64,000 nt of DNA from Halichondria panicea (lineage: Eukaryota > Porifera > Demospongiae > Suberitida > Halichondriidae): contig NC_087387.1 in the NCBI RefSeq assembly GCF_963675165.1, positions 6,744,683-6,808,682 of the forward strand, read 5' to 3'. The notes beneath the pieces are model-generated. The model was not told the origin of the DNA and did no database searches. It saw nothing but the letters and a program-made list of their open reading frames with translations. This document shows positions 23,828 to 63,663 of the stretch, piece after piece. The position numbers and the translations under genes are program-made. Each line of letters begins with the position of its first letter. Positions within the stretch are counted from its first letter, which is position 1.

Positions 23828-25264
23828 ATGGCTAGTATCTGCTTGGTATTACTCACTATCGTCCTAGTTGGACAAATACTCGCGGACGAGCAAGCTGGCG
23901 GTAAGTGCTTTACAGTAATAATTATCGATGATTTTAATGCTCTATAGGTGCAGTGTGTAATAATGGAACTGTACAGCTGGTAAGAGGTTTCCTTATGAGA
24001 GAATATGTCCAGTACTGCCATGATGGAGAATGGCATTGGCTGTGTGCTGGTGGTGGAAGCTGGACGAGAGTGGAGGCCAATGTTGTGTGTAGACAACTGG
24101 GATTCAGCGGCCAAGGTATGCTAGTTTTGATGATATCATCATACATGTCCTTGAATTATCACAATCATCAGAAGCCAAAAAAGGAGGAGGTGGTACAACA
24201 CCAAAAACTAATCCACCCTACTTTATGTTTGGTGACACATCCTGTGCTGGAGGGGAAAGTAGCATAGGAGAGTGCAACATTCATACCAGTCCATGTAATA
24301 AAAGTAATAGTAGAGCAGGATGGGTAGAATGTCAACCAGGTAAGAGTATTAACTTTTGCATATCAAAGTTAATGCTGAGTGCTATACAGCTAGTTGCACT
24401 AATGGAACAGTGAGACTGGTGGGTGGTTCCACTATCAAAGAGGGACGAGTGGACGTCTGTACACAGGGACATTGGGCATCCATCTGTTACAATAAAGATC
24501 TAGAGCTGGCAGGCACTGTTTGCAAAATGTTAGGACTTCCAATACAGGGTAATTCACAAGTCTAATTAAGATGAACATTAAATTTATGTATATGTTGATA
24601 CAGGAGCAATAGCGAACGTTACTAGATCTATCTCTTCTATCGACCCAAAAGCCAACTGTACAGTGACAGATGATGGCACCACCCTGAACTGTGGAGACAC
24701 TATACAGCCGCACATATGTGGTGCAGGAAGCTTAGTTATCACATGTCAAACCTTCAGCTATGCTGTACATACTCTAGCAACACCCACAACCACTTCCATG
24801 GAAAATTACCAGGCAACAAGCCCAATCACCAGTGCACTAGGAGCAGTGATTGGACTTCTTGTACTACTAGAAGTAGGGACAGTTATTGTGTGGGTGGTTT
24901 GTACCATCACAAAGAAGAAAAGACTCTCAAGCTCACCAAAACAAAGGTATTAAATTACAAATTGTTAAAAATGTGTCCTATTATTTGCTATAACAGAGCT
25001 CTATTACAAGTGAATGAGAGCTACACTGACACAGCTCCTATAGAACCGAGCTACAGTTCACTAGGTCCTAACTACAATACTGTGACCACAAGCGATGAAA
25101 GAATTGATGACTATAATGTCCTTGATCACAACAGGCCCAAACTGAAACCAGCCAACCCACCACCAGTGAAGGTTGAGGCCAGTAAGGATGAGTTTTTCAA
25201 TGCAGAGGAGCATATGTACGCAGCCGTCAATAAGAAGCATGCAACAATGGTCGGAGGAGAATAA
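23828..25264 (+). CDS. S11: SRCR transmembrane receptor with tail B, intact
   Basis: Exons are 23828-23900, 23954-24115, 24172-24339, 24390-24548, 24604-24946 and 24997-25264. Phases run 1,1,1,1,2. The signal peptide MASICLVLLTIVLVGQILAD is followed by EQAG. SRCR1 includes CNNGTVQLVRG, YVQYCHDGEWHWLC, TRVEANVVCRQLGF, YFMFGDTSCAGGESSIGEC and WVECQPG. SRCR2 includes CTNGTVRLVGGSTIKEGRVD, CKMLGLP and CTVTDDGTTLNC. The helix VIGLLVLLEVGTVIVWVV has a buried glutamate, then KKKR. Tail B: SYSSLGPNYNTV, DDYNVL, ANPPPVKV and EEHMYAAV. It is probably a surface recognition receptor signalling through SH2-binding tyrosines and possibly SH3 ligands (inferred). Confidence 0.88.
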
Positions 25265-25877: not shown

Positions 25878-27325
25878 ATGGCAAATATCAGTTCGCTGCT
25901 TGTCACGCTTGCTTTGGTTGGACAACTATCGGCGGACAAGCTCGGTAAATATGTATATATACTGTAACTTAATCCTCTGTGATACTTTGCACATGCAGCG
26001 TGCAATAATGGAATTCTACGTCTAGTACGTCTTGATGATCAAGTGACTAAAAGCTACGTCCAGTACTGCCTTGATGGAGAGAATGGCGTTGGCTGTGTGG
26101 CAAACCATTTTCCCGAGTGGAAGCCAACGTAGTGTGTAGACAGCTCGGTTACAGTGACCAAGGTCAGTGACTGTTAGCATTGCTCTATATACTACAATAC
26201 AATACTACTACTTACGTGCAGGAGCCACAAAAGGGTTTAATAGGAATCTAGCATCGATGTCTATCAGTGGCGGTTTCTTCAGGTTCAATTTCGGCTCATG
26301 TTCTGGCAGGGAGAATGCATTAGCAGAGTGTGAAAGAATTGAAGCTTTATCTAATTGCAACAGTAATCAACAAGGATGGGTAAAATGCAATCCAGGTCGG
26401 CTATTATCTCTAAAACTAGTGGTAGCTATCTATAATAATTATAGCTGATTGCACTGATGGAGCCGTACGACTGGTGGGCAGATCCAACATAAGACAAGGA
26501 CGAGTGGAGGTGTGTCAGAACCAGCGATGGGGTACAATGTGCTACAACCAAGTACTAGCTGGACATGTTTGCTCTCAGCTAGGATTTCCAAGCCAAGGTA
26601 AGAACCGAGTATGATCAGGTCAAGCAAACATTTACATACGTAAAGTATACGTTTCACAGCAGCAGTGTCAAACGTAATCAGCACGACAAGCCCACAAGTT
26701 AGTTGCACCATGGATACCAACAATAGGTTGAGCTGTGGGAACATCACTGACAGTGGGTTATGTGCTCGAGGTTTAGCCGTTGAGTGTCCATCGTTCTGTG
26801 AGACATGTCCTAACTCATCGACATTATGCATGGCACCCTCTGACATAATCGAAGATCAAACTACCGCCAACAGCAGTGATCCACCAATCCCAAGCAGTAG
26901 TATCTCAACCAGTGCTGTACAGAATACAACCATGCATCCAAGAAGCCCAATCACCAGTGTACTAGGAGTAGTGATTGGGCTTCTTGCACTACTAGAAGTA
27001 GGGACAGTTATTGCGTGGGTGGCTTGCACTGTCACAAGGAAAAGGAACTCAAGTCCAACAAAACAAAGGTATAATAATTAATTACATGTATGGAGGTGCT
27101 ATAATTGTTTGGCTCAGTAACAGAATTCTAACAAAAGTGAATGAGAGTTACAATGGGACATTCCTAAAACAACCGAACGTCAGCTCACAAGATCCTAACT
27201 ACGATACTGTGACTACAAGCAATGAAGCAGTTAGTGACTATGATGTCATTGACAATTTCAAACCCAAGCCGAGAGCACTCCAGATATCCAACCCACCACC
27301 AGTGACTGTGGAAGCCAGTAATTAA
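25878..27325 (+). pseudogene. S12: B-type SRCR receptor with two-base insertion
   Basis: Exons are 25878-25944, 25999-26162, 26222-26395, 26445-26597, 26660-27068 and 27124-27325. The signal peptide is MANISSLLVTLALVGQLSAD. In exon 2 (about 26082-26088) GATGGAGAATGG of the paralogues reads GATGGAGAGAATGG, an extra GA that shifts the frame to a stop. The correct frame resumes as WRWLC, SRVEANVVCRQLGYSDQG. Everything after is open: FRFNFGSCSGRENALAEC, SRCR2, a long Ser/Thr/Pro stalk, helix VIGLLALLEVGTVIAWVACT and tail B-short (NYDTV, SDYDVI, SNPPPVTVEASN). A single lesion; error or recent loss. Confidence 0.75.
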
Positions 27326-32051: not shown

Positions 32052-33431
32052 ATGGCTAGTATCTGCTTGGTATTACTCACTATTGTCTTAGTTGGACATA
32101 TACTCGCGGACGGGCAAGGTAAGTTTTTCAGTAATAGATAAAGTAATTTAATGCTCTGCATGTGATTGTGCAGTGTGTAATAATGGAGCTGTACAGCTAG
32201 TAAGATATGGTAGTTTCAATGAAGAGTATGTCCAGTACTGCCACAATGGAAAATGGCATTCCCTGTGTGCTGGTAGTGGAAGCTGGACGAGAGTGGAGGC
32301 CAACGTTGTGTGTAGACAAATGGGACTCAGCGGCCAAGGTATGCTAGTTTTGCATTTCATCATACATGTGACCTTGAATTTCAGGAGCCAAGAAAGGAGG
32401 AAGTGATACACCAAGAGCTAGTCAACCCTACTTTATGTTTGGTGACATATCCTGTGCTGGAGGGGAAAGCAGCATAGGAGAGTGCAGAATTCATACCAGT
32501 AGTACATGTAGTTATAATAGAGAAGGATGGGTAAAATGTCAACTAGGTAAGAGGATTAACTTTTGTGTATCAAAGTTGATACTGAGTGCTACTACAGCTG
32601 ATTGCACTAATGGAACAGTAAGGCTGGTGGGTGGTACCACTAACAGAGAGGGACGAGTGGACTTCTGTATACAGGGACATTGGGCATCCATCTGTTACAA
32701 TGAAGATCTAGAGCTGGCAGGCACCTTTTGCAAAATGTTAGGATTTCCAATCGAAGGTAATAATGCACACGATTATTATTAAGATGGATGAAATCTACGT
32801 ATATGTACATTATATATACAGAGGTAATGGCGCAAAGTACTAATTCTTCTATTGATCCAAAAGTTGATTGTACAGTGACAAATGATGGTACAAAACTGAG
32901 CTGCAAAGACTCAGTGCAGATGCCTACAAGAGGCCTGGCAAGCTTAGTCATCAAGTGTCAAACTCACAACTATGCTGTACAGAATACAACCAGTGCACTA
33001 GGAGCAGCGATTGGACTTCTCGTACTACTAGAAGTAGGGACAGTTATTGCGTGGGTGGCTTGTACTGTCACAAGGAAAAGGCTCTCAAGCTCACCAAAAC
33101 AAAGGTATTCAATTTTACTATACACAAGTTGCTAACTTTGTCTTAAATTATCAGAGTTCTAACACAAGTGAATGAGAGCTACACTGACACAGCTCTAATA
33201 GAAGAACCAAGCTACAGTTCACTAGGTCCTAACTACAATACTGGGACCACAAGCGATAAAGGAATTGGAGGCTATGATGTCATTGATCACAACAAACAGA
33301 AACCGAAACCATCCAACCCACCACCAGTGAAGGTTGAGGCCAGTAAGAGTGAAGATGAGTTCTACAATGCAGAAGAGCATATGTACGCAGCTGTCAATAA
33401 GGAGAAAAAGAATAATGTTGGAGGAGAATAA
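32052..33431 (+). CDS. S15: SRCR transmembrane receptor with tail B, intact
   Basis: Exons are 32052-32118, 32174-32338, 32385-32546, 32598-32756, 32822-33104 and 33155-33431, with phases 1,1,1,1,2. The signal peptide is MASICLVLLTIVLVGHILAD. SRCR1 includes CNNGAVQLVRYGSFNEEYVQ, SRVEANVVC-like TRVEANVVCRQMG, YFMFGDISCAGGESSIGEC. SRCR2 includes CTNGTVRLVGGTTNREGRVD, CKMLGFP and CTVTNDGTKLSC. The stalk is short. The helix AIGLLVLLEVGTVIAWVACT again has a buried Glu. Tail B: PSYSSLGPNYNTG (the second motif is weakened, V to G), GGYDVI, SNPPPVKV, EFYNAEEHMYAAV. Same proposed role as S11. It is the most downstream complete gene of the tandem row. Confidence 0.88.
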
Positions 33432-34134: not shown

Positions 34135-34486
34135 TCAATGCTTGAGTGTGGAGTGCTCCTCTTCACACAGCCACACCTTGCTGTCCGTTTTGCTTGACAT
34201 TGGCACTTCGTAGTTACTAGCTTCACTGTACATACTGTCACAGCCTGCCCCCTCCACACCCTCGCACCTTCCACTCTCCACTACATAGTACTTTTGTTCC
34301 TTGTCTATAGGATTAAGCTGATTTGAGCAACGATTAGTGTTCTAATCGCATTCCAGTATTGAGTAGGTGTGGTCTTGTTTATTGCCATTGGGAACTTGTT
34401 GGTAGGTGGGTCCACTGGAGCTGTATGCATTGTGTAGTTCCATGCTTGTATCGTATACTGGGTTGTTCAGTTGTCGTTGAATTGTT
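34135..34486 (-). pseudogene. Orphan tail A exon
   Basis: Minus strand. It is almost complete: QRQLNNPVYDTSM, YSSSGPTYQQV, DHTYSILECD, then TAG for the CAG seen in S8, then CSNQLNPIDKEQKYYVVE, NYEVPM and EEEHSTLKH, where the last tyrosine is changed to histidine. No upstream receptor exons exist on this strand. The adjacent 34.5-kb sequence is the upstream region of a three-SRCR gene, so this is a rearrangement fragment. Confidence 0.75.
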
Positions 34487-35255: not shown

Positions 35256-36543
35256 ATGGCTAGTATCTGCTTGGTATTGCTCACTATTGTTATAGTTATA
35301 CACACACTCGCGGACGGGCAAGGTAAGCTAGTGCTTCAGCATAATACTTTAATGATCTGTATATGTTTTTGCAGTGTGCAAAAATGGAACTGTACGGCTA
35401 GTAAGATATGGTAGTTTCAATGAAGAGTATGTCCAGTACTGCCATGATGGAGAGTGGCATTCCCTGTGTGCTGGTGGTGGAACATGGTCAAGAGTGGAGG
35501 CCAATGTTGTGTGTAGACAACTGGGACTCAGCGGCCAAAGTATGGGATATAAATTATACATGTCATTGAATTATAATTACAATCACCAGGAGCCAAGAAA
35601 GGAGGTGATACAACACCAACAGCTAATCCACCCTACTTTATGTTTGGTGACACATCCTGTGCTGGAGGGGAAAGTAACATAGGAGAGTGCAGAATTCATA
35701 CCAATAGTACATGTAGTGATAGAGCAGGATGGGTAAAATGTCAACCAGGTAAGAGCATTCATTTTTGCATATCAAAGCTGATGCTGAGTTGCTATACAGC
35801 TAATTGCACTGATGGAACAGTGAGACTGGTGGGTGGTTTCACTAACAGAGAGGGACGAGTGGACTTCTGTACACAGGGACATTGGGCATCCATCTGTTAC
35901 AATGAAGTGCTGGCAGACACCGTTTGCAATATGTTAGGATTTCCAATGCAGGGTAATAATGCACAACACTATATTTAAGATGAACTTTAAATGTACGAAT
36001 GTTTATACAGGAGCAATGGCGAAAAGTACTACTTCTTCTATTGACCCAAAAGTTGATTACAGTGACAGATGATGGCACCACCCTGAACTGTGGAGACACT
36101 ATACAACTGCCACCTATACGTGATGTAGGAAGCTTAGTCATCACATGCCAAACTTTCAGCCATGCTGTACATACTCTAGCAGTACTAGGAGCAGTGATTG
36201 GGCTTCTTGTACTACTAGAAGTAGGGACAGTTATTGCGTGGGTGGTTTGTACTGTCACAAAGAAAATGCACTCAAGTTCAACAAAACAAAGGTATTAAAT
36301 TACATGCATGGCATGTGCTAGAATTGTTTCCTCTGTTACAGAATTCTAACAAAAGTGAATGAGAGTTACAATGGGACATTCCTAAAACAACCGAACGTCA
36401 GCTCACAAGATCCTAACTACGATACTGTGACCACAAGTGATGAAGCAGTTGGTGACTATGATGTCATTGATAATATCAAGCCCAAGCCGAGAGCACTCCA
36501 GATATCCAACCCACCACCAGTGACGGTGGAAGCCAGTAATTAA
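35256..36543 (+). pseudogene. S16: B-type SRCR receptor with two-base deletion in the stalk exon
   Basis: The signal is MASICLVLLTIVIVIHTLAD. SRCR1 (CKNGTVRLVRYGSFNEEYVQ, SRVEANVVCRQLGLSGQ, FGDTSCAGGESNIGEC) and the first half of SRCR2 (LVGGFTNREGRVDFC) are open. In exon 5 near 36,055 GATTGTACAGTG of the paralogues reads GATTACAGTG, giving TGA within SRCR2. After it the frame is open: DDGTTLNCGDTIQ, helix VIGLLVLLEVGTVIAWVVCT and tail B-short (NYDTV, GDYDVI, SNPPPVTVEASN). One lesion only; error, allele or recent loss cannot be told apart here. Confidence 0.72.
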
Positions 36544-40012: not shown

Positions 40013-41365
40013 ATGCGAATATTATCTCAGCACTACTAGGTCTAGTCGCTATTGCTTTAGTTGGACAACTCTCTGCAATAGCACAAAGTGAGTACATTCA
40101 CTATATATAATATAGAGACTGATATACAGAAACATGGCATGCAGGCTGTAATAGTGAACATGTTCAACTGTCACTTAACACAACGGACAATAGAAGCTAC
40201 GTTCAGTACTGCATTGATAGTACTTGGAGGACTCTGTGTACTAGATCGTGGTCGCGTGTTGAAGCGAATGTTGTATGCAGACAGCTAGGCTACAGTGACC
40301 AAGGTATGCTACAGAGCACACTATACCGTAATATAATTATTATTTCAGGAGCCATAAAAGAGGTGACTGACTTTGGGGATATTCATATGGGAAAGTTCTT
40401 CATGTTCAATCAATCTTGTGCTGGTGGGGAGAATACATTAGCAGAGTGTAAGCCAACAACAACATTGGAACACTGTCGCCGTTTTTATATGCGTGAAAAC
40501 AACAGACAAGGATACATTCCAGGTAACGTGATTTCTACTAAACCTAAACTATATTATTATTATAGCTAACTGTACTGATGAATCCCTAAGACTGGTGGGT
40601 GGATCCAACATAAAACAAGGACGAGTGGAGGTGTGTCAGAACAAGCGATGGGGTACAATGTGCTACAACCAAGCACTAGCTGGACATGTTTGCTCTCAGC
40701 TAGGATTTCCAAGCCAAGGTAAGAAACTTATATTCACAGCAAATCAAAGCAATTTTTGTAGGAGCAGCAGCGATGGAAATGAATACAACTGGCCCACAAA
40801 TTAACTGTAACATCGACACCAACAATAGGTTGAGCTGTAGGAACATCACTGACAGTGGGTTATGTCCTCGAGGTTTAGCCGTTGAGTGTCCATCGTTCAG
40901 TGATACAATAGCTACCAGTGCACTAGGAGCAGTGATTGCATTTCTTGTATTACTGGAAGTAGGGACAGTTATTGCGTGGGTGGCTTGTACTGTCACAAGG
41001 AAAAGGAACTCAAGTCCAACAAAACCAAGGTATTCAATTTGCTAAATTTGCCCTATTAAAAAAGCAAAAAATTATCCCGTAACATGCAGAATTCTATTAC
41101 AAGGGAATGAGAGCTGCACTGACACAACTATATAGAACCGAGCTACAGTTCACTAGGTCCTAACTACAATACTGTGACTACAAGCGATGAAGGAATTGGA
41201 GAATATGATGTCATTGATCACAAAAAACAGAAACTGAAACCAGCCAACCCACCACCAGTGAAGATTGAGGCCAGTAAAAGTGATGATGAGTTCTTCAATA
41301 CAGAGGTTCATATGTACACATGCAGCCGTCAATAAGGAGAAAAGGAATAATGTTGGAGGAGAATG
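40013..41365 (+). pseudogene. S19: B-type SRCR receptor, start and tail damaged
   Basis: The start reads ATGCGAATATTATC where S4 has ATGGCGAATATTATC. The missing G puts the signal peptide out of frame. SRCR1 is fully open here (CNSEHVQLS, YVQYCIDSTWRTLC, SRVEANVVCRQLGYSDQG), as are FFMFNQSCAGGENTLAEC, SRCR2 and the helix VIAFLVLLEVGTVIAWVACT. In the tail, ACAACTATATAGAACC gives a stop before SYSSL, and ATGTACACATGCAGCC has extra bases against ATGTACGCAGCC. It is the inverted copy of S4 and S6 and shows which of their lesions are private. Confidence 0.8.
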
Positions 41366-42288: not shown

Positions 42289-43987
42289 TCAATGCTTGAG
42301 TGTGGAGTAATCCTCTTCACACAGCCACACCTTGCTGTCCGTTTTGCTTGACATTGGCACTTCGTAGTTACTAGCCTCACTGTACACACCGTCACAGCCC
42401 GCTCCCTCCACACCCTCACACCTTCCACTCTCCACCACATGGTAGTTCTGCTCCTCGTCTATAGGATTGAGCTGATTTGAGCGACGATTCGTGTTCTTAT
42501 CGCGCTCAAGTATTGAGTAGGTGTGGTCTTGTTCATTGCCATTGGCAACTTGTTCGTAGGTGGGTCCACTGGAGCTGTATGCACTGTGTACTTCCATGCT
42601 TGTATTGTATACTGGGTTGTTCAGTTGTCGTTGAATTGTTGAGAGCTCTTGCACTTGAGAAGTATTGTACCTGCATCGATACAGAGGTGTTCACTTATTA
42701 TTGGAACTGAACGTGGACAATGTATACAATACACCTGAATAAAAACATGCTACATGTATATAGTGCTTTCAAATAAAATTATTCAGCTGGTTCTCTTGTC
42801 AACAAATAATTATTCATGAAACAACAACACACTCAATGGAATACATATGCTCAATGAACTACTCACTCAGCTTGCTGTTTCTGTGACCTGCGTTTCTCCA
42901 ATACACAGCAAGTTACAGTCAATCCAATAGCAAGTCCCAGGAGTGCAACCACCAGAAGACCAATCACTCCTCCCAAGGCTGCAATAGGGCTACCAGCATT
43001 GTCACAGCTTTGTACTTCATCAGCTAGTGTGATTGTGGTTGGTTCAGGACACGTCTGAAGGGCTTGTTCTATTGTTATTTTAATAACTGAGCTGATAACA
43101 TCTTGGTATGTCTTGCACACAACACCAAGATCCATGGAATCATCAACAGACTGGTCTGCAATATCCACACAGTGGAGGACACTATTCATTATTACACAGC
43201 TTCTTGTTGGAGCTGTTCCATTGCCAAAAGTAGTGACTGCTTCTGAACCTATAACATAATTATTAGATGCACATGGCAACCATCACTGTCCCTACCTTCA
43301 GTTGGGAAACCCAGTGTAGAGCAAACAAATTCAACCAGTTGGGAATTGTTTGTTTGAACAGCTCCCCAGCGACCGCCCACACACACCTCCACTCGTCCCT
43401 CTCTCACGCTGGACCCATCCACCAGTCTTATGGTCCCGTTAGTGCAGTCGGCTACAACTCATAAACATTATTATACTCAGCTGTTTTTAACAAAATATTT
43501 ACCTAATAGACACATTATTTCAGGATGACTTTTCTCGGTACCACTGCAGCCACCTCTGCAAGTATCAAAATCTCTTTGGTTGATTCCACATTCTTCAAAC
43601 GTATTCTCTGTTCCACTACACTTACTAACATCAATGTAATTCAGACCGGTTGAGACAAAGCATGATCGTTCCACACTTGCCCCTGTGGGACCCAAAGAAC
43701 TAGCAAAGCATACATTGTACTGACAAATGTACCATTATTATTGTAGCCCAGCAGTCTGCAAGCAATGTTAGCTTGATAAGCACGCCATTGGTAGCCTTTC
43801 TCACACACAGTTTTCCATTCTTGATCAGAGCAAACATTGACTCTACCATCATCTCGTATCTGTACCTTTCCATTGATGCAGCCTGAGGGAGTAAACTTGC
43901 AATCTAATCATAGAAGTATACAAGAACTTTACCTTGAACAGCTTTAGAAGCAACAAAGAGGATTGCAATCAATATCAGAGTGTTCAT
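42289..43987 (-). CDS. S20: A-type two-SRCR transmembrane receptor, intact
   Basis: Minus strand. Exons are 43933-43987, 43733-43882, 43503-43682, 43295-43451, 42867-43248 and 42289-42670, with phases 1,1,1,1,2. The signal peptide is MNTLILIAILFVASKAVQ. SRCR1 includes CINGKVQIRDDGRVNVC, NIACRLLGYNNNG, CSGTENTFEECGI and CRGGCSG. SRCR2 includes CTNGTIRLVDGSSVREGRVE, FVCSTLGFPTEG and LHCVDIADQSVDD. A stalk of about 60 residues precedes the helix GGVIGLLVVALLGLAIGLTV, then KRRSQK. Tail A: YNTSM, YEQVANGNEQDHTYSIL, NYHVV, NYEVPM and EEDYSTLKH. This is the reference gene for tail A: a paired YxxV/YxxL motif plus a terminal acidic YxxL. Ligand unknown. Confidence 0.88.
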
Positions 43988-45756: not shown

Positions 45757-46030
45757 CTTAAATGCTTGAGTGTGGAGCACTCCTCTTCACATAATGACAT
45801 AGCCACACCTTGCTGTCCGTTTTGCTTGCCATCGGCACTTCGTATAGTTACTATAGAGACTCATTGTAGAAAAAGTCACAGCCCGCCCCCTCCACACCTT
45901 CCACTCTCCACCACATGGTATATAGTTCTGCTCCTCGTCTATAGCACGATTTGAGTGATGGTTTGTTTATGTCGCATTCCAGTATCGAGTAGGTGTGGTC
46001 TTGTTCGTTCCCATTGGCAACTTGTTATTG
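45757..46030 (-). pseudogene. Eroded orphan tail A exon
   Basis: Minus strand. Pieces QVANGNEQDHTYSILECD and the C-terminal MASKTDSKVWL are recognisable. Extra TA units (plus-strand CGTATAGTTACTATAGAGAC and GGTATATAGTTCTG against CGTAGTTACTAG and GGTAGTTCTG) and deletions break the frame repeatedly. No upstream receptor exons. Confidence 0.7.
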
Positions 46031-46463: not shown

Positions 46464-48211
46464 TTATAGAGTTTCTGAGTCCCTATATTGAATATACATA
46501 AACAGACACACATGAATTGCAAGGTCTCTATATAACACCGAAGTTTGGAACCACATTTTAGCAGCTTCACACAGCCACACCTTGCTGTCCGTTTTGCTTG
46601 ACATTGGCACTTCGTAGTTACTAGCTTCACTGTACACACTGTCACAGCCCGCCCCCTCCACACCCTCACACCTTCCACTCTCCACCACATAGTAGTTCTG
46701 TTCCTCGTCTATAGCAGTGAGCTGATTTGAGTGACGATTTGTATTCTGATCGCATTCCAGTATCGAATAGGTGTGGTCTTGTTGATTGCCATTGGCAACT
46801 TGTTGGTAGGTGGGTCCACTGGAGCTATATGCATTGTGTAGTTCCATGCTTGTATCATATACTGGGTTGTTCAGTTGTCGTTGAATTGTTGAGAGTGTGC
46901 TTGTTTCTGACGACATACATGCAGCTGCATGTACAACATATATTAACTGTGTACAGTAGACGTAGGACAAAAATGCTCTGAAATGACAAACACATAAGTA
47001 TGAACTTACATTTGTTTATGTTTCTGTGATATGCGATTCCACATTACTCCACAAACAATCAACAAGACCACCAGCAGAGCCACCAACAAAGCAACTATTA
47101 CCCCCAGTGCTGTAGTGCTTGACTCAGTACCACATGACGACTCTATACATGTATATATAGAGGTTACTGTATCTGTGGACATAGCATTACCCTGTACATG
47201 GCTAACAGAGGGACTAGCTGTTGTATTACAGTAATCACACGAGAATTCACAAGTCTGGTTTGTTTGAATTGTGGAATTATAAACTGAAGTTACGTTGTCA
47301 CAAGGAGTGCTTATTTGATTCAGAACTTCCTGCCTGACACAACGAATCCCTAGGTCTGTTGTACCATCATCACATGATTCATTGCAAGAGAGGTCGCCAG
47401 AATCGCCTATAGTGCAGTTGATGGTTGGTACTCTTCGTGGGTTGAATACAAGCACTTCAGCTCCTGCACAGAAGAGTAGATTGATTAAATTGACAATTAT
47501 TATGAACTCACCAATGCTAGCAAATCGAAACTCTTGGCACATTTGTCCAGCGTCTTGCTCAGTCGATGCGTTGCTACAAATTGCCATCCAACGGCGATCT
47601 GTACACATTTCAACTCTTCCCTCGTTGTCAGTAGCTCCACCCACCAGTCGAATATCCCTGTCAGCGCAATTAGCTGCGTACAACAAGGATAGTTATGATA
47701 ATGTTAAATGAATGCTTACCACTTGAACATTGAACTGTTGCATGTTTATCAACCATATTACAGCCATTACGAGCTTCATAGTAGCACTCATCAATATTAG
47801 CGTCAGATTCATCACAGTCGACAAACCTCAAAAACGTATAGGGTGAATTCTGACTAATACTAACATTGCTGGTCGTAGCACCTATATATATAAAGCAACA
47901 ATAGTGACTATGTCTACTCTTAGGAAAAGCTGTTGAGTTATCTATAGTAGCACCTTGATCGCTGTATCCAAGTTGAGAGCAGACAATGTTGGCCTCAACG
48001 TTACCCCATGTATCAGACACACAGATCCTTCTCCAATCCCCCTTATAACAGAACTCGACAATGTTGTTAACGTTGTTGTCGTTTACCAATTGAATATCTC
48101 CATGAAAGCAAGCTGTAACATATTAGATATGTAGTTACATGCAGTATCCAAATACTACTGTATACCTTGTGTTCCTAAAAACAGAAGAGATACTGTGATG
48201 AGTTGTATCAT
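46464..48211 (-). CDS. S21: two-SRCR transmembrane receptor, tail A with replaced C-terminus
   Basis: Minus strand, sister of S8. Exon 1 is 48166-48211 (MIQLITVSLLFLGTQ). SRCR1 includes CFHGDIQLV, EANIVCSQLGYSDQG and CDESDANIDECYY. SRCR2 includes CADRDIRLVGGATDNEGRVE, MCQEFRFA and CTIGDSGDLSCNESC. The stalk is about 57 residues longer than in S8, with four extra cysteines (CEFSCDYC). The helix is ALGVIVALLVALLVVLLIVC, then WNRISQK. The tail exon keeps YQQV, YSIL, YYVV and NYEVPM, but after VWLCE the EEDYSTLKH end is replaced by about 33 residues read from former 3' UTR (AAKMWFQTSVLYRD...). Open throughout, so a variant receptor lacking the terminal YSTL motif. Confidence 0.78.
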
Positions 48212-52061: not shown

Positions 52062-54344
52062 TCAATGCTTGAGTGTGGAGTAGTCCTCTTCACACAGCCA
52101 TACTTTGCTGTCCGTTTTGCTTGACATTGGCACTTCGTAGTTACTAGCCTCACTGTACACACCGTCACAGCAGCCTGCCCCCTCCACACCCACACACCTT
52201 CCACTCTCCACCACATGGTAGTTCTGCTCCTCATCTATAGGATTAAGCTGAAATGAGCGATGATTTATGTTCTTATCGCGCTCAAGTATTGAGTAGGTGT
52301 GGTCTTGTTTATTGCCATTGGCAACTTGTTCGTAGGTGGGTCCACTGGAGCTGTATGCACTGTGTAGTTCCATGCTTGTATCGTATACTGGGTTGTTCAG
52401 TTGTCGTTGAATTGTTGAGAGCTTTTGCACTTGAGAAATGTTGTATCTGTGTACAGTCATGCAGACATGCAGACAGGTGTTCATACTTAATATTGGAACT
52501 GAAAGTGGACAATGTATATGCAATGTACGCCTGAAAGAAAATAAGCTGAATAGTGCTTTCAAAATAAACTTATTCAGCTGGCTCTTTTGTCAACAAGCAT
52601 TTATCAACACACTCAATGGAACACATACGCTCAATGAACTCACTCAGCTTGCTGTTTCTGTGACCAGCGCTTCCCCAACACACAACAAGTTACAGTTAAT
52701 CCAATAGCAAGTCCTAGGAGCACAACCACCAGAAGACCAATCAATCCTCCCAAGGCAGCAGTAGGACAGCTTCCCATCATTTTATTATTAGCTAATGTAA
52801 CGAATTGGTCTACTTCACTGGTGGTGGGGGCTGGCTGATTTGTTCCGCTGGTCGTGGTTGGTTCAGGGCATGTCTGAAGGGTTTGATCGATTGTCCTATT
52901 AATAACTGAGCCAATAACATCTTGGTGTGTCTTGCACACAACACCAAGATCCATGGAATGATCGCAATTGACGTTAACAGTTGGTGTGCAACTCAGACTA
53001 CTGCTGGTTGTTAGTGTACAGCTATACACAGGTGTACCCTCTGTAGTAGTGCCATTCCTCAAAACTTCAACTCCTATATTACAATACATAAGTTAATAGC
53101 TATCAGATTTGCCCTCAATACTCAGCTCACATAATTATCAAAAATACAGAGCTAATTTACAGTGTGCATACCATTTGATGGAAATCCAAGTTCAGAGCAG
53201 ACAGCCCCGGTGATTTCTTGATGATTGATACTACACACTGTGCCCCACCGACCACCCACACACACCTCCACTCGTCCTTCTCTTGGCGTGGATCCATCCA
53301 CCAGTCTTGTGGTTCCAATGATGCAATCTTGTCAGTGCATGAATGATTACATACAAGATGGTAATAAATTGTTCACCTTTAATACAAGTCACTGCACCAT
53401 ACGCTCTATTGTCTCCTGTACAGGACAGTTTGGGGCAGGTGGTTCCTTGATTGGTTCTGCTACATTCTAACAGGCTTCTTTCAGCTCCATTACACATAGG
53501 ATTAATGAAATGAGGTGGTGTTGGTAGAGATGAACAGACTGAACCTCTTGCAGCTTCTGTATGTACACATGATAACAGATAGCATGCTAGATATTATACC
53601 TCTTTCAGAATAGCCTAGTTGTCGACAAACCACATATGGAGCGAAAATGGTATTTGAAATTTGTTTTAACCAATTATTTTTAGTTGCACACAATGTTTCC
53701 CACTCTCCATGGACACAAAGCTGCACTGCTCCTTTTACTGAGTTATCCATTTCAATTGGTTGGTCTCTGAATCGAACATCACCATTGGAACAACCTGTAA
53801 ACGTCTTGCCTCATAATAAGAGTATATATAGAGAGCTATAGACAGTATAACTTTCTTACCACACATAAATCCAGCTAAGTTACTGCTAGTAGTTGATAGC
53901 AGATCAAAAGAGTGTCCACGAATGCATTCAGTCAGGTTCTGTTCATATCCATTGCAGTCGGGGAACGTTACACAAGTTGTAGGGTTCCCTTTATCAACCA
54001 CTGCTACCTGAGCCCCTAATATGTTCACAGACATAATTATGATTATTTGAACACTTATTGTACGTACCTTGAAAATCCATACTATTCTGTTGACAAGCCA
54101 GTTTGGCATGAGTGATAGTCCATCCAGAAGAACATACGCTGGTCCATTTTAAACTTAAACTTGAATTTGAAGACAGACAAATACTGACTGAGCTATCAAG
54201 ATTCAACTCGAACTCACCAGCGACAGTGCAAGTATCTGTAATCTATTCACGTTAATACAAATATTCAAACAAAATTCATTCACCTTGTGCTGTCCCTTGT
54301 GTTATGAAAGTAGCTACTAGCACCGAGATCAGCATACTAGCCAT
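52062..54344 (-). CDS. S22: three-SRCR transmembrane receptor with tail A, intact
   Basis: Minus strand. Exons are 54284-54344, 54068-54235, 53860-54015, 53600-53794, 53377-53556, 53172-53327, 52644-53073 and 52062-52446. The signal peptide is MASMLISVLVATFITQGTAQ. SRCR1: FELNLDSSVSICLSS, KWTSVCSSGWTITHAKLAC, CVTFPDCNGYEQNLTEC. SRCR2: CSNGDVRFRDQ, VQLCVHGEWETLC, VVCRQLGYSERG, ERSLLECSRTNQ. SRCR3: IGTTRLVDGSTPREGRVEVC, AVCSELGFPSNG, SLSCTPTVNVNC. A Thr/Pro-rich stalk (TTTSGTNQPAPTTSEV) leads to GGLIGLLVVVLLGLAIGL. Tail A: YEQVANGNKQDHTYSIL, NYHVV, NYEVPM and EEDYSTLKH. It is the intact member of the S7/S18/S22 group. Confidence 0.88.
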
Positions 54345-55331: not shown

Positions 55332-57840
55332 ATGAGCGGACCTAACGCTAGTGTTTCATCTGATCCAGCAGCTACCAAGGCTACCAGTGTTGGCATTACC
55401 TCATCCCTAACTATGGACCCTAACACACCACACAAGACGGGGCACACTCCAGGTGAACATGAGTGCACATGACTACATGTTAGACTGGCGGCGACAGCCC
55501 CTCGTGTACCGCGAGGGACTGGCAAACTGTCTATCAGTCACTCGTCTCAGCTGCAACGAGCATTGCAGCCTATCAGATTGCTCAACGTCATATTAGCCCT
55601 GTAATTGTAACCGCACTTACACTTCAGGGGATTCAGTGCATTCCATAGTAGCTGAATCTCATAGCAAAATTTAACCACATTATCTATAAAGATATTCATG
55701 TTTAGTAGTGTCATACGATCTATTACACTTCCGCTGAGACGAGTGACTGAGAGGCAGTTTGCCAGTCGCTCGCGCTACACGCTCGGGCGGCTGTCGCCGC
55801 CAGTCTAACTACATGTGTAGAGTTGATACGAAAGCGAACGCATATCATATCGTATATCACCTGATTTTAGTATTGTGTGATTGTTGTTCATAGTATTGGT
55901 GAACCACACACACCATACACCCACACACACACCACGCACACCACACATACCACCACACATCACACAGGTCCACCCATGACGCCCACCACCAACCTCAAGG
56001 TCCTGGTAGCGGCTGCAGCAGCCGAGCGTGCCATTGACAGAGAATACCAAATAACCACTCACAAGAAGTCCAAGGTAAGAGACTTCACTAGCTCTAACAT
56101 GCACAAGGCCAGGGAGACATGTACCACATAATTATGTCCTCTGCTCCTCTTCTGTTTGAATGGGTGCAAATTGAGGGAATTTTTGCAAAGCTTTGAGCAA
56201 ATAAAGATAATAAAGTTGCACTAGAACAAACTGTTTGACAATCACAACACATAATTATACTATGTATTTCCCAGCACTGATATAACAGTATTTCCCCTGG
56301 CGGTACAGGTGAAGCGTCCATCATCTGGTGGGGGTGATGGTGTGGAGGGTGTGGCTTGTGAGGACGAGCAACCAGGACGCAAGAACAAGTCACTCTCGTT
56401 GCTCTGTCAAAGGTAATCTCATACCTCCATACAACTAGTACAATGTGACGTGTATTGTCTTATAATACATGTACAGTCTATTATACTTGCGCCCATAAAT
56501 TACAGTTCTATATTCATTTGTTTTGTGTACTAGCTGGTACATTCATAGTCTAGTATGACGTAATTATTTACATGTAGTTTCTCACAATTACTATACAATG
56601 TCTTATAATGGATGTTGCTTGCACCATTCTCTTCCTGCCTCAGATTTCTCACGATAGTTGAGACTGATGTTGGTGTGGGATGTGAGTTCAGCCTGGAGAC
56701 TGTGGCCGCCACTCTCGGCACTAACAGGCGGAGGATCTATGACATCATCAACGTGCTCGAGAGCTTGGAGATGATCGTCAAGCAGTCTAAGAACTGGTAC
56801 ATGTGGTTGGGACAGGACTGCCTACTGGTCACACTCGCTAAACTAAAGGTACAGAGTTAACAAGCATGCTGTTCATGTGTAGCAGATTTATGGTTGAGAT
56901 TTGACAAAAAAGCAACCAAAACAACCACACTTGTGTACACTGTGCATTACGTGTGTGTGCGTGTGCGTGCGTGCTGTGCGTGTGCGTGCGTGTGTGCACG
57001 TGTGTGCGTGCGAGTATTCACAGTGTACACTAACAGTCACACACTCTTGACCTCTTAATTGCTTCATGTTAACAGTATACATTTAGTGTACCCGTACTTC
57101 CTTGCTAAACAGCATATACCCGATACCTGTGCATGCTTACTGGGGCCCATTCCCATTCCAGGCCATGGCACGAGATGATTCTGATTTCCGCTCACTGTAC
57201 GAGTTTGAGGGGGTGGATGCACCTGAGCTGAGTGAGGGTGTGGAGAGTGTGATGTGTGAGGACGGCCCTGTGAGTCGCTGGGACAAGTCACTGGGCGTGC
57301 TCTGTCAGAAGTTTGTCATGCTCTTCCTCATAACACCCGTACGTAGGTCAATCTACGAAAGAAATATCCATTAACATACCTGTAAATTAACTAAATTAAC
57401 TGTTGTTGAGACTGTAGCAATAACAACCAGAATTGATTATAAATGTGGTAGCATTGTCATATGATTGTGTGATACAGTGTGCACTGTATAAGTAAACCAC
57501 CTCCATCTTTGCTGCCTCCCATACGTCATCTCTCTCTACCTTTGTTACCTCCCAGAGCCATGAGGTGACCCTGGAGTGTGCTGGTAGTCTACTCATGCCT
57601 GACAACTACGACTCCACCTCGGGTGGAACACAACCCACCAACAAGAGTGAGTGCTAGCTCCTACTGTACACTTCAATGTTGACTGCCCATAACTATTGTC
57701 CGATTGTCATAACTAGAGCTACAATAATTACGGTGTGTTTAGATTAATTTCAGGCAAATACACGTTTCTTTTTGTGAGAAATAAACATACGTATAATTAT
57801 AGTGATATGCGTACAGTCGTTAATATTATACTCTATGATT

Positions 57841-57876
<36 letters not shown>

Positions 57877-58895
57877 CCAAAGTTCGAAGGTTATACGACA
57901 TAGCCAATGTTCTCACCACTCTCAACCTGATACGTAAGAAGACGTTCCTTGCTCCCAACCATCGCAAGATGCCCGGCTATTACTGGTGTGGTCCGAGCCT
58001 CGAACAGATCGACGTGTTGCGTGAGTTCAACAACATGCAGTACCAGAAATACTATAGTTGCTAAGTGCTTGTTATCACAACACAGCGTTATAAACCCGTG
58101 CTGGTTTCAATCTGTTTGCGGCTTCATGGTGTCACCACAGTCCAATCTATAATACCTTAAACAACCCCTCAAATAATGCATGCCAAAACTTAGTTCCTAT
58201 ACTCAACATAAATCAGAAGCCATAATTGACCATAGAACTTCTGGAGCCAAATTTATTACCTGACAGTGTTCCATGCAATAGAGACAAACAGTCAAACTTT
58301 ACTCATTGTTATTTATTCCTCATGCAGCTGTGACCCGCAAGAGTGACTGCCCCACCTCTCTCTTTACTGCCAAGTCCTCCCTCTCTGGGGTTGCTCTCAC
58401 AAGACGGCCCTCATTCGGGAAGAACCGCCCGTTTATCCATCAGTACGAGGTCAAGGGTCAATCCAGCAAGCCCAGCTCTGCACCTGCGACCCCTGTGAAG
58501 GTTAAGGAGACTGGTTTCAAGAGAAGTATATCGTTTGGGGGCGGGGCTAATCCGAAACGCCCAGCTGGTAGTGAAAGGATAGACACCACAGCAGCAGCTA
58601 CTAGCAAAGGTACTCTATTGCAAGGGACAGTACACTTACTTAATTATTCCCCTAAAATTGAAATTTATATGCCAGTAATGAAGTGTGCTTAGTTTGAAAC
58701 CTTCACTGTACATGTGCTAAATGTATCAAGTCAGTGTAGTAATGGTAGACCTAGAATGGCGTTCTAATCTCTCTGTGTGTGTGTGTGTTTTCAGGTGCTC
58801 CTAAAGCTACCGACTATTTCTCTGAGATACGAGAATTTGAGGCTGAGATGATGAAGCACGTTCACAAGTACCCTCATGATATCCTACCACACTAG
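55332..58895 (+). CDS. E2F7/8-like: Atypical E2F (E2F7/E2F8-type) transcriptional repressor
   Basis: Exons are 55332-55452, 55968-56074, 56309-56412, 56644-56848, 57162-57338, 57556-57646, 57877-58020, 58328-58609 and 58795-58895, and all junction phases agree. It encodes two E2F winged-helix domains and no dimerisation or Rb-binding region, the mark of E2F7/8. Domain 1: GRKNKSLSLLCQRFLTIVE then NRRRIYDIINVLESLEMIVK and SKNWYMWLG. Domain 2: SRWDKSLGVLCQKFVMLFL then TKVRRLYDIANVLTTLNLIR and YYWCGPSLEQ. Both carry the RRIYDI/RRLYDI DNA-contact motif. The proteins bind TTCCCGC-like sites as dimer-independent repressors of cell-cycle genes (family knowledge). Exon 7 ends at the GTGAGT donor; reading past it gives a short truncated form. 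The stop at 58,893 may be bypassed (see 59,095-60,344). Confidence 0.88.
55481..55807. mobile_element. 327-bp MITE with 9-bp target duplication in E2F intron 1
   Basis: The ends TAGACTGGCGGCGACAGCC and its inverse extend as imperfect inverted repeats for about 75 bases per side. ACTACATGT flanks both ends (55472-55480 and 55808-55816). It has no coding capacity. The 9-base duplication fits Mutator- or Merlin-like families (inference). Confidence 0.85.
56945..57016. repeat. (GT/GC)n microsatellite in E2F intron
   Basis: Alternating GTGTGC and GTGCGT units over about 70 bases. Confidence 0.85.
57842..57876. repeat. (CA)n tract forming the acceptor of E2F exon 7
   Basis: Seventeen or so CA units run directly into the CACAG acceptor. 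The tract replaces the usual pyrimidine tract, so its length may affect splicing of the exon encoding the second RRLYDI motif. Confidence 0.8.
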
Positions 58896-59094
58896 CAGTC
58901 ATGTCAACTCCCTGCATGTTGTAGCTTAGCCTCACTACATGCATGGTGTGGGTGTGATACTTCCTGCATGCCATTCAGTACTTCAACTACGTACAGTATA
59001 TTGCACTTCATTGTATGTTTAGAGCTGAAGTATATAGCACTGCTATTTTAAGTTGTCTATCTGGCTTTAATACTACTGTATTTGTTTATCACTT

Positions 59095-60344
59095 GCATGC
59101 TGTGTGTGTGTTCCTTGACTTCTTCTATACTGGCTCCATTGTTCCGTGAGTTCGTGCAGCGCTACACTTCCACTGTCGAGACTGTGTTTGGTGGTGGACG
59201 TACCATCCGACCTAAACCTGCCACGCCTCCATTTGGCAAGACCACACCCATTTTATCGGCCACCCCAATACCACCGTTATCTATGGACCCCTTCCATAGA
59301 GCTACTAATTCAATGGCACCCCTCCTTTCCAGTGCAACGACCAATCAGATAGCAGCGCCAAAGACAAGTATTGAATCGCAAATTCAACCTACTGTGACGA
59401 CACCTCGAATGAACTCTGACCCTATAACTAAACCTGCAGCTGATGAGCCGCCCTCACTAGTAGGAGTCACCCAAACTGCCAAGGACCTCATGCTGATGAT
59501 GGGAAATCTACTCACCAAACTAACTCCTGACCAGCTGCCATCGGAGACACCTCCTGTGATTCTCGAGTGCCCCGAAATGATTACTACTGTTGGATATTCT
59601 AAGCGCTACGAAGAAGAGAAACAATTGCAAATGTCCACCACCAGTTTGATGAAACCTGCTGTATCTGATCTTGGATCCGGACCTGGCATATCTGGCATAC
59701 CTGGAATGGAACCTGGCCTGAAAACATCAATGGCTCCTATGTGTATACCGTTGTCCTCTCAAGTTCTAAGTTCGCTTGTATCGCAAAAATCGATTCCAGT
59801 GATAAATGAACGGACTGGACAACCGAGTGTTTCGATTCCCAACCACATCTCTAACTTTAGCAATATTTCCCAAAGTGCTCTACTAGCTGGCCAAATTGTC
59901 ACCTGCCTTCAACCGAACGTTGACATTACTGCAACAACTTTGAGCAATCAAATCCCCATCTCTTGGCTGCCCCAACTCAGCTCCCTGCTCCTGCCTACTG
60001 TTGCTAACCACACACCTATACCTAACTCTAACAGCCCAACTATTGGAACAGTGAAAAATGGAACCACCTCTCAGTCTCAGTATAACTTGCAAGCTAGCAA
60101 GGAGAAGATGGTGGGAACTGCGAGCAATGCAAATAATAGAGTGCCTTTAGCGTCTGTGCAAAAGGCACAATTTATGGTACCACAATGTTCACGAAAAGAG
60201 GCTCTTAAATGCACGGAGGATAATCATGCCCAAGAGAATGCGATGCCTTCCCCGAAGAGGTTCAAGTTGAGTGCTACAGGTTCACAGCGGCAATTTCCTG
60301 TGAAAGATAGTCAACCGCTGGCTCAGCTCAGGAGAGCCAACTAA
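59095..60344 (+). CDS. Long open exon, probable C-terminal part of the E2F7/8-like protein
   Basis: The frame is open from about 59,052 to TAA 60,342-60,344, and the first ATG is at about 59,095. The product is Ser/Thr/Pro-rich with no recognised domain. Near the start is LFREFVQRYTSTVETVFGGG, and near the end SPKRFKLSATGSQRQF. A possible acceptor after TTCCGTGAG or GTGCAG at 59,140-59,160 fits an exon start, but no donor in exon 9 gives a certain phase match. E2F7/8 proteins elsewhere have long unstructured C-termini, which supports an alternative last exon. A separate gene cannot be excluded. Confidence 0.5.
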
Positions 60345-61166: not shown

Positions 61167-61349
61167 ATCTCATAAATGCCGACTGGGATATTTTGTTATT
61201 GCAAGTGCAACATTATAATTCCCTTGTGGTTATTACCATAATTGGCCAGGGTTCGTGTATACTTTAAAGCATTCCACCCACCAACTAAACGAACTTTCAT
61301 AACATATGTTTTCACTCATACAGTTTCACTGATTAACGCCCTGAACTTC

Positions 61350-61376
61350 ATGTACAAGCCAAGTATCGATGGCTAG
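61350..61376 (+). promoter_or_regulatory. Upstream ORF overlapping the GPCR start codon
   Basis: ATG at 61,350 opens MYKPSIDG and stops at TAG 61,374-61,376, five bases past the main ATG at 61,369. Ribosomes starting here would terminate past the receptor start, so it could lower or gate its translation, provided the mRNA begins upstream (inferred). Confidence 0.5.
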
Positions 61377-63663
61377 CTTCCAAATATTTGTTGCTTACAT
61401 TCTCGCTACCACATTGGTACTGACTGCAGCTGGTGCCAAGAACAGAACATTACATATCCTTTGTCTATTACCGTACAACGAGCCTCCATTCTATCCATCG
61501 TGGGATGATGGACCTCAGATCAGATTAGCACTGGAAATGGCCAAAGAGGAGATCAATAATCAGACAGCAATACTACCAGAATATCGTATAGAACTGATTC
61601 ACAACAACAGTGGATGTCAGCACACAAGTAAAGCTTATGAGGCGGTGTTTGCCAATGTCTATTCTCAATTTGCTCCCAAACGAGTGGTTGGTATTATAGG
61701 TCCTGGTTGTTCGAGTTCATCAGCTGCAGTAGGTTCGTTGCTAGGTCGTGAGCAGCTGTCATTAGTGACAGTTCATAGCGGAGGCAGCCTGATACTGGCC
61801 AATAGAACTACATATCGTTACGCTCTGAGCTCTATCAGCTCATCGGAAAAATTTGCTAAATTAGCCGTGGAACTAATGATAAAGAACAGCTGGACCAAAG
61901 TGGGAGTATTATTTGAAGAAACTCGTACATTTTACTCATCAATTGCCAGTGAAGTCCAAAAACTTGTATCACTAAACAGAACACTTAGTATTGTTTCTAC
62001 ACCTGTGTTCAATACCTACATACCACTAAGAGAACTGGTACGAAAAAATGGCCTTCGGATAAACTTCTTGCTAACAGCGAAGAACATCACGCAACGAACT
62101 CTTTGTCTAGCACAACATTTCGGGATGGTATATCCAGCCTACCAATGGATTGTCACCGTCAACACATTCGATGAGATTGCTAGTAACGTGAGCTTCTATT
62201 ACGAGGGTAAAAAATACACATGTTCCGAAAAAGACATTAAAACTATTGCTCTCGATAGAAGTTTATTTCTTGTCTATCGATTATCAGCAATCAACGAGTC
62301 GTCACCGTCAACCTATTCTAGACATTCATTCAACGAATACGATCAACTCATTCAAAAAGGAATCGAGGAAAGCAATTTGCAGAGCGGCCTACTTAACAGG
62401 CCCGCTATCGAGTATTCCGTATGGACCTCGTACTTTTACGATTCACTGTGGGCGTGGTCTGTTGTTTTAGACAACCTTACAGAAAGTCTTGACCTCAGAA
62501 CTTACAAATACGGAAATACAACCGTGTCGGATATGATTTTAGACGAGTTCTATCGCTTGGATTTTAAGGGTGTGTCAGGAAGAATTGCGTTTGACAATAA
62601 GTCGGGATTTGGGTTGAGATCTGTTTCTGTGCTACAGGTGACAAATGGCATATCAAAAGCTGTTGCTTATCTTAAGAACGGAAACACGCTTATACCGATA
62701 GACAATCTGTTGGAATCAATACCTGACAAGTTTGATTCTGCAGATACAGTGAGCAATGAAGTTGTTGGTATCTTCTTCACTATTACAATCATAGAACTGG
62801 TGGTATTGGTGGTGCTAAATCTTCTCACGTACAAATATCGGACCCATCCGTCCGTTAAAGCATCATGCATCAAACTAAACCAAATCATGTTCGTCGGATG
62901 CTACTGTTTCATTCTAACAATATTTTTCTTCACTCTGCAGTCTTCTAAACTACTGAGTAATGTTCCATGGGTAACTGTGGCACTGTGTAACCTGTCTTGG
63001 TACTGGATGCTGCCTCTATCGTTTACACTGACTTTCGGAACAGTGGCTGTTCGAACGTGGAGATTGTATCGCATATTTACACACTATCTGAATCCAGGAC
63101 GCTTCATTACTGACTTCTACCTCATCGTGTTTGTATTCATTTTGTTATTGATAGATGCGCTATTTGGAACAATCCTGACAACACTTAATCCTCAACATTT
63201 TGGCCTAATTAATACAACTTCTATTGATGGAAATGCAACATTTTTATACTATTTCCGGACATGTGGAAGTCGAATTCCAGCGTTAACAATTGGACTAGTT
63301 GTCGGTCCCAAAGCTTTGCTCATGGCAGCTGTGTTGATGCTTACTGTGCTAACTCGGAACATAAAGAGCAAATCCTTCACCACGAAGACTTTACGTATAC
63401 TAATCTATCTAATCATCCCAGTGATGGTGCTGGGATTTGTAATATATTACTTCTTCTATTTCGAGGTACCGACATTGACCGTACCTTTCTACTCATCAGT
63501 GATAACTTTTAACATCATGTTAGTGTTGTTTGTTGCTTTGATATGTTTCCCGCCACTACTGCCCAAGTTACAAGAGGGATTCTACAAAATTGTTCGAAAG
63601 AACAAACCACTGTACGAGGCTCGTGTGGAGATCCAAATTAACAGTTTACCCATATCCTTTTAA
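61369..63663 (+). CDS. GABA-B-like class C G-protein-coupled receptor, single exon
   Basis: 764 codons without introns. The signal peptide is MASFQIFVAYILATTLVLTA. Residues about 28-450 form a Venus-flytrap (ANF-receptor type) domain with VVGIIGPGCSSSSAAVGSLL, the conserved loop that contains the GABA-contact serine in GABA-B1, then LVTVHSGGSLI. There is no cysteine-rich linker, which separates GABA-B-like from glutamate and calcium-sensing receptors. Seven helices run from about residue 463 (VGIFFTITIIELVVLVVLNL) to about 725 (NIMLVLFVALICFPPLLP), with IKLNQIMFVGCY before helix 2. The tail is about 35 residues without the coiled coil used for GABA-B heterodimers. Ligand unknown; glutamate, GABA or another amino acid are options. 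Confidence 0.9.
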   Translation: MASFQIFVAYILATTLVLTAAGAKNRTLHILCLLPYNEPPFYPSWDDGPQIRLALEMAKEEINNQTAILPEYRIELIHNNSGCQHTSKAYEAVFANVYSQFAPKRVVGIIGPGCSSSSAAVGSLLGREQLSLVTVHSGGSLILANRTTYRYALSSISSSEKFAKLAVELMIKNSWTKVGVLFEETRTFYSSIASEVQKLVSLNRTLSIVSTPVFNTYIPLRELVRKNGLRINFLLTAKNITQRTLCLAQHFGMVYPAYQWIVTVNTFDEIASNVSFYYEGKKYTCSEKDIKTIALDRSLFLVYRLSAINESSPSTYSRHSFNEYDQLIQKGIEESNLQSGLLNRPAIEYSVWTSYFYDSLWAWSVVLDNLTESLDLRTYKYGNTTVSDMILDEFYRLDFKGVSGRIAFDNKSGFGLRSVSVLQVTNGISKAVAYLKNGNTLIPIDNLLESIPDKFDSADTVSNEVVGIFFTITIIELVVLVVLNLLTYKYRTHPSVKASCIKLNQIMFVGCYCFILTIFFFTLQSSKLLSNVPWVTVALCNLSWYWMLPLSFTLTFGTVAVRTWRLYRIFTHYLNPGRFITDFYLIVFVFILLLIDALFGTILTTLNPQHFGLINTTSIDGNATFLYYFRTCGSRIPALTIGLVVGPKALLMAAVLMLTVLTRNIKSKSFTTKTLRILIYLIIPVMVLGFVIYYFFYFEVPTLTVPFYSSVITFNIMLVLFVALICFPPLLPKLQEGFYKIVRKNKPLYEARVEIQINSLPISF

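Follow-up and report, generated by a model that had tools for sequence, protein, structure and literature searches.

Halichondria panicea possesses a large and clustered family of type I SRCR receptors, which probably signal through Src-type and tandem-SH2 kinases while coupling recognition to uptake through NPxY and YxxPhi motifs. Members of this family are found in the 64,000-nucleotide stretch of contig C11 analyzed here (the window). The sequence-only reading had proposed a candidate recognition-receptor system with ITAM- and hemITAM-like tails. A tyrosine-based receptor family is supported by an intact gene, purifying selection, conserved tyrosines, and tandem-SH2 enzymes encoded in the same genome, but the ITAM label does not hold for the gene from which the proposal started.

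That gene, S20, is the only one in the interval 42289–43987 and fills it exactly on the minus strand, with six exons encoding a signal peptide, two SRCR domains, a stalk, a transmembrane (TM) helix, and a tail. Exon 1 (43933–43987) supplies the start codon and a hydrophobic signal-peptide-like stretch, judged by eye. The two halves of SRCR 1 come from exon 2 (43733–43882), where PF00530 scores above the cut-off on the ORF 43641–43907, and exon 3 (43503–43682), whose acceptor was set from the paralogue at 679–1521. Exon 4 (43296–43451), placed by the splice model and Pfam, encodes the first half of SRCR 2, and exon 5 (42867–43248), placed by the splice model, its second half together with the stalk and the TM helix. 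The tail, hereafter tail A, is encoded by exon 6 (42289–42670), with NPVY, YEQV-x9-YSIL, NYHVV, NYEVP, and EEDYSTLKH. In the splice model, the coding sequence of 1305 nt is open and all introns are GT-AG, in phases 1, 1, 1, 1, and 2. Another acceptor for exon 3, at the TAG preceding TTCTTTGG, was rejected because it breaks the frame; the true one lies 17 nt further on according to the same paralogue. The spliced protein matches PF00530 with an E value of 1.2e-16 and 61.3 bits (cut-off 26.1), with two SRCR stretches by Pfam, the best at residues 28–111. The putative TM helix covers approximately residues 279–297, the most hydrophobic 19-mer starting at residue 279 with a mean hydropathy of 2.66, and the signal peptide, single TM helix, and tail were assigned from hydropathy and by eye. 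With six compatible exons and an open frame of 434 residues, the SRCR receptor earlier claimed at this place is confirmed. A bacterial or viral origin was set aside on account of the introns and the animal domains.

The nine tyrosines of the S20 tail lie in YNTS, NPVYNTS, AYSSS, YEQV, YSIL, NYHVV, VYSEA, NYEVPM, and EEDYSTLKH. All the motifs quoted by the sequence-only reading are present, YEQV and YSIL being nine residues apart as claimed, and NPVY, which has the NPxY form, was missing from its account. The window holds 10 copies of tail A, of which four are full-length and open: S20 itself, 5284–5673 (+; EEEYSTLKH) and 52062–52448 (−), both with a TM-type exon upstream, and 16816–17202 (+), which reads YQQV and stands behind a different TM exon. 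The copy at 46566–46913 (−) is open and has lost the terminal YSTLKH, and that at 2–277 (+), cut by the window edge, ends in EEEYT. Decayed copies are found at 34138–34485 (−; an in-frame stop and EEEHSTLKH), 19800–20185 (−; stops, several tyrosines lost), and 45797–46024 (−; stops), and a partial one at 14851–15009 (+; NPVD, YEQV, and YSIL). Hence, the statement that the motifs are kept in all intact copies is right for the four full-length open tails but not for the open copy at 46913–46566, and YEQV occurs in every full copy except 16816–17202. At 16205–16738 and 47006–47692, the exon ahead of tail A is another type of TM exon (..TTALGVLVGLLVTLLVVLLIVCG..); TM and tail exons are here exchanged as modules. 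In the whole genome (131 Mb in 39 contigs, for which all counts given here are lower bounds), a search with tail A returned at least 36 matches, all on C11 and many of them identical pairs.

By composition, a single tail A is only moderately unusual, and conservation is the stronger evidence. When one tail A was shuffled, a lax pair of the form Y..[LIV]-x6-12-Y..[LIV] arose in 4.8% of shuffles, at least four YxxPhi sites in 1.1%, and an acidic YxxL in 1.8%. The dN/dS of tail codons across copies is 0.279 (bootstrap 0.158–0.499; seven open copies, counting L009 as open though its tail ends in EEEYT), indicating purifying selection. No replacement is seen in the eight tyrosine columns of these seven copies, three columns varying between TAT and TAC only. 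By contrast, L017, L018, and L019, which are truncated or decayed, lack three tyrosines each. Omega is 0.193 in the motif windows (−2 to +3) versus 0.338 in the rest of the tail, both being point values without an interval. For the ectodomain, in sets that mix copies of different state, omega is 0.45 for exon 2, 0.43 for exon 4, 0.54 for exon 5, and 1.06 (CI 0.68–1.82; seven sequences) for exon 3 paralogues. Of the parts measured, the tail shows the strongest constraint, and exon 3 is the only one that seems to evolve freely or to diversify. A pseudogene array was set aside on the dN/dS.

Under the strict rule YxxL/I-x6-12-YxxL/I, as worded in the available part of PMC9731471, none of six tail A sequences contains an ITAM. 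The only pair is YEQV/YQQV-x9-YSIL/YSLL, and since YEQV ends in V, not L or I, tail A is strictly not an ITAM; for S20 the ITAM-like label is too strong. A single YxxL after acidic residues, the hemITAM criterion, is found as EEDYSTL or EEEYSTL in all six tail A sequences tested. The hemITAM consensus form is DEDGYxxL, with acidic residues and a glycine before the tyrosine, so that the resemblance earlier seen in EEDYSTLKH extends to the acidic YxxL but not to the glycine. Receptors of the CLEC-2 type have a C-type lectin ectodomain and DEDG before the tyrosine, whereas tail A has EED or EEE, no glycine, and eight further tyrosines. Common to both is the acidic YxxL; in the CLEC-2 type, a single one can recruit Syk when two receptors are bridged (PMC9731471, in part). 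ITIM/ITSM sites of the form [SIVLT]xYxx[IVL] occur in none of six tail A and none of four tail B sequences. A check for the Draper-like combination of NPxY and ITAM found NPVY in tail A alongside the imperfect pair only. With no strict ITAM in the six tail A sequences, Syk docking may have been lost or altered in the tails of the window.

By motif matching, the textbook ITAM sits in sister clusters outside the window rather than in tail A. The tail A search yielded three weak relatives there, on C11, and one of them, used as a query, recovered at least 76 places, 75 on C11 and a weak one on C1. The relatives share the receptor build of the window genes: in L070, of clade C, a single frame holds an SRCR (E 4e-16) followed by a membrane helix, with the tail downstream. 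These distant tails are 30–36% identical to tail A and share with it NPVY, YSSxGPxYExx, YEVP, and EEYSTLKH. Among the columns of alignment A1 that are fixed in six tail A rows, 6/8 tyrosine columns are kept in all three distant tails versus 16/75 other columns (Fisher p = 0.0037, with rows that are related and not independent). The string EE-N-YSTLKH-stop occurs in at least 23 places, all on C11 (reversed control 0), and the codons of the terminal YSTLKH differ between clusters mostly synonymously. The tails are exemplified by EEYSTLDTSRENHYHTL for clade C, QDYSTLDTDEQEHDYHVL for clade D, and QEYSTLDNTRVDHDYQIL for clade E. A canonical ITAM, YxxL/I-x6-8-YxxL/I, is present in 12/14 clade C and 4/5 clade D tails as well as in the fragments examined of L088 and of 3/3 clade E tails, and YSTL-like-x7/8-YxxL in 20 of the 23 distant tails examined, namely, the 12 loci returned by the distant-tail search and 11 further ones chosen from its 76 matches, the remainder of which include tail A, tail B copies, and decayed places. 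Shuffling a clade C tail produces the ITAM regex in 0.5% of cases (0.1% when the acidic residue is required), and none of the 131 window ORFs of at least 80 aa contains it. NPxY and a canonical ITAM stand together in most clade C and 2/5 clade D tails, and sites of the ITIM form [SIVLT]xYxx[IVL] in 5/5 clade D and 4/14 clade C tails.

Clade C often has in addition a first pair, YEVI-x9-YDVI, which is an ITAM by the x6-12 rule and corresponds to YEQV-x9-YSIL of tail A and to YNTV-x9-YDVI of tail B. Tail A keeps this upstream pair, NPVY, and the terminal EE[DE]YSTLKH. Alignment A1 sets its NYHVV against the EEYSTL tyrosine of clade C; by eye, YHVVES fits YHTLES of clade C and YHVLES of clade D better, and tail A is therefore judged likely to lack the first half of the canonical second pair. 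In clade C, constraint on the tyrosine sites exceeds that on the remaining tail only modestly: omega is 0.31 at tyrosines versus 0.44 elsewhere, and 0.37 versus 0.46 for motif windows (no interval). The codon counts rest on 13 rows, L072 having been dropped because its C-terminus is out of register; of 111 tyrosine cells, three are replaced and three are gaps.

The window contains a further tail type, tail B, exemplified at 33147–33431 (+; YSSLGPNYNTG..YDVI), with additional copies at 6847–6569 (−), 10744–10496 (−), 24995–25261 (+), and 41135–41323 (+) and shorter forms at 27122–27319 (+) and 36340–36537 (+). A distant C11 tail matches the tail B copies weakly (E 0.008–0.5). Tail B was set aside as an ITAM, as even the lax pair is missing in two of four copies. 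Larger repeats are seen as well. C11 6640575–6667582 and 6764546–6791553 (window 19864–46871) form inverted arms: for five tail copies the coordinates of the paired matches add up to a constant, and flanks of 3.2–3.3 kb show an identity of 100% or close to it (3330/3330, 3309/3309, 3240/3240, and 3268/3270); they reflect either a very recent duplication or an assembly error. A direct duplicate, L003 and L004, at C11:6703555 and 6750023 (window 5341), is identical over 3330/3330 bases. Other genes lie nearby, including a single-exon class C GPCR-like gene at 61345–63663 (+; ANF_receptor 4.4e-26, 7tm_3 6.1e-21). At approximately 56609–60344 (+), ORFs resemble by eye an E2F-type transcription factor with two RRIYD-like stretches, and the 430-aa ORF of that region has no Pfam match.

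Enzymes and adaptors that could read such tails are encoded elsewhere in the genome. SH2 matches number at least 71, and at three loci two SH2 domains lie beside a catalytic domain. The search for tandem-SH2 kinases, a check suggested by the sequence-only reading, found both a Syk and an SH2-ANK-SH2 kinase, together with an SHP-type tandem-SH2 phosphatase. In the Syk gene (C4:4842461–4850506), the second, C-terminal SH2 matches Syk chains at 4.6e-36 and the best chain other than Syk/ZAP-70 at 1.4e-16, the kinase exons have ZAP-70/Syk as best matches apart from one chain labeled EGFR, and HRDLAARN and paired tyrosines (NYY) in the activation loop are visible. At C9:5255018–5259157, SH2, ankyrin repeats, SH2, and a tyrosine kinase follow one another in the build of Shark/HTK16, a type unique to invertebrates according to the available part of a review (PMC10253181). 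Assignment to the Shark type rests on the ankyrin repeats between the two SH2 domains. The kinase domain alone ranks Src-Abl ancestor and ZAP-70 level, behind the EGFR-labeled chain 9p9u, and within the genome Src-like kinases outscore the short Syk exon, so by this ranking the domain is not nearest to Syk. The phosphatase, at C3:8403872–8406287, has the SHP build (SH2, SH2, and PTP). Three SH2-kinase genes at C2:7.25 Mb appear Src-like by score, and one of at least nine PTB matches is of the LDLRAP1 type (5.5e-23, next 3.5e-8). On C11 itself, the region 6008269–6018590 has a tail A copy (6018258) next to same-strand tyrosine-kinase matches at 6008269, 6011989, and 6014550. There is also a very large protein-tyrosine-phosphatase array at C4 0.04–2.6 Mb (at least 174 scored genome-wide, most among the matches listed being on C4), and a single stretch of C1 (15.5–17.4 Mb) holds dozens of protein-kinase matches that resemble one another and score close to 130 bits.

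In the model that we infer, in which the ligand and the direction of the signal are predicted along with phosphorylation, docking, and uptake, the members of this large clustered family would expose two or more SRCR domains outside, span the membrane with one helix, and carry a set of tyrosine sites as the tail. A ligand would cluster the receptors, and a Src-type kinase would phosphorylate the acidic YxxL/I/V sites. In the sister clusters, a tandem-SH2 kinase, either Syk or Shark-type, would then dock on YSTL-x7/8-YxxL and be activated; with tail A of the window, docking may occur on the YEQV-x9-YSIL pair, or two receptors may be bridged via EE[DE]YSTL in hemITAM style, or both. The SHP-type phosphatase and other PTPs would serve as the off switch, and NPVY could recruit a PTB adaptor, for which the LDLRAP1-type gene is a candidate, coupling recognition to uptake.

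The chief rival holds that the tyrosines act mainly in endocytic sorting, YxxPhi for AP-2 and NPxY for an LDLRAP1/Dab-type adaptor, with no ITAM-type signaling. YxxPhi and NPxY are indeed ordinary sorting signals as well, every site here has the YxxPhi form, NPVY is found in most copies of tails A, C, and D, and the LDLRAP1-type gene is at hand; moreover, scavenger receptors are expected to internalize their ligand. However, simple sorting needs no fixed spacing, yet in clades C, D, and E, whose linkers differ, the second pair stays at x7-8, which argues against sorting as the whole story, and the acidic EE ahead of YSTL is kept. We regard sorting alone as rather unlikely; sorting as such is compatible with kinase signaling, and the two are not mutually exclusive. 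The kept YxxL-x7/8-YxxL spacing is likewise not predicted if the tails are general phosphotyrosine docking platforms, RTK- or scaffold-like, for the single-SH2 adaptors Crk, Nck, and Grb2 with no tandem-SH2 system. YEVP is a Crk-type site, YEVP or YEIP is present in most copies of tails A, C, and D, and SH2 genes are plentiful, but Grb2-type YxN is found in only 1/29 tails of the main set, and that one is frameshift-like, making this reading less probable still.

An inhibitory role of the ITIM type, exerted through the SHP-type phosphatase, would accord with the SH2-SH2-PTP gene and with the ITIM-form sites of clades D and C; with such sites absent from the six tail A and four tail B sequences, this is very improbable. 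Least credible, and already disfavored, is a decaying array whose motifs are a meaningless legacy of recent duplication. Stops or truncations do occur in several copies, and some copies duplicate one another exactly, but the dN/dS interval lies below 1, S20 is intact, and conservation extends to the distant clusters, where the terminal YSTLKH has changed mostly synonymously. Signaling through Src-type and tandem-SH2 kinases remains the best explanation; against it stand the departure of tail A from the strict ITAM rule, the weakness of its pairs by composition, the modest extra constraint on clade C tyrosines, and the pair often broken in tail B. On a bolder and more tentative reading, which we hold to be possible but somewhat short of even odds, one chromosome of this early-branching animal bears a multi-cluster SRCR complex. 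Its tails would unite NPxY with one or two ITAMs and a hemITAM at the end, and would be read by the sponge's own Syk and Shark-type kinases. This would be an ITAM immune or self/non-self complex built on SRCR instead of Ig or lectin domains, in which some clusters, as in the window, have lost half of the canonical pair and have possibly been retuned to hemITAM-type signaling.

Among known systems, the closest functional parallel is Draper, a single gene with a different ectodomain that is not known to contain SRCR, as opposed to the expanded SRCR array here. Draper-I of Drosophila, a single-pass member of the CED-1/MEGF family working with Shark and Src42A, has separable ITAM and NPXY functions, and its readers are a Src-family kinase and the SH2-ANK-SH2 kinase Shark (PMC4503800, in part), a type of kinase also present in this genome. 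ITAM, hemITAM, or ITIM tails have been reported for Hydractinia alr and Botryllus FcoR, which, as here, are clustered receptors bearing motifs of the ITAM, hemITAM, or YxxI/L/V form in genomes that also encode homologues of Syk and SHP; these cnidarian and tunicate receptors differ in having Ig-type ectodomains, and a polymorphic allorecognition role is shown or proposed for them (PMC12065747, in part). Vertebrate CD5 and CD6 share the SRCR ectodomain and tyrosine tail, CD5 with an ITAM-like motif, a likeness drawn from description and not from tail alignment; they are two genes for lymphocyte co-receptors, and each SRCR of CD5 comes from one exon, compared with two here (PMC8158487, in part). 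The oyster CgIgIT2 is an invertebrate receptor with a classic ITAM, but a molluscan one with five Ig domains (PMC11999971, in part). In sponges, massive tandem arrays are known for the SRCR superfamily of Amphimedon queenslandica, with 296 genes, and tandem arrays are found here too; the words "ITAM" and "tyrosine" do not occur in the main text of that paper as far as it is available (PMC10855680).

Syk-related kinases are known from sponges (PMC9486129 and PMC9601881, in part), and no report of sponge receptors with ITAM- or hemITAM-type tails was found in the open-access literature. ITAM-type receptors have been reported from cnidarians upward (PMC12065747, in part), and for the sponge relatives of Syk no receptor was found in the open-access literature. 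If confirmed, the tails described here would be the missing receptor side. How the Src-ITAM-Syk circuit arose could then be tested directly near the base of the animal tree, and a function would be found for a receptor expansion that is among the largest still unexplained in early animals.
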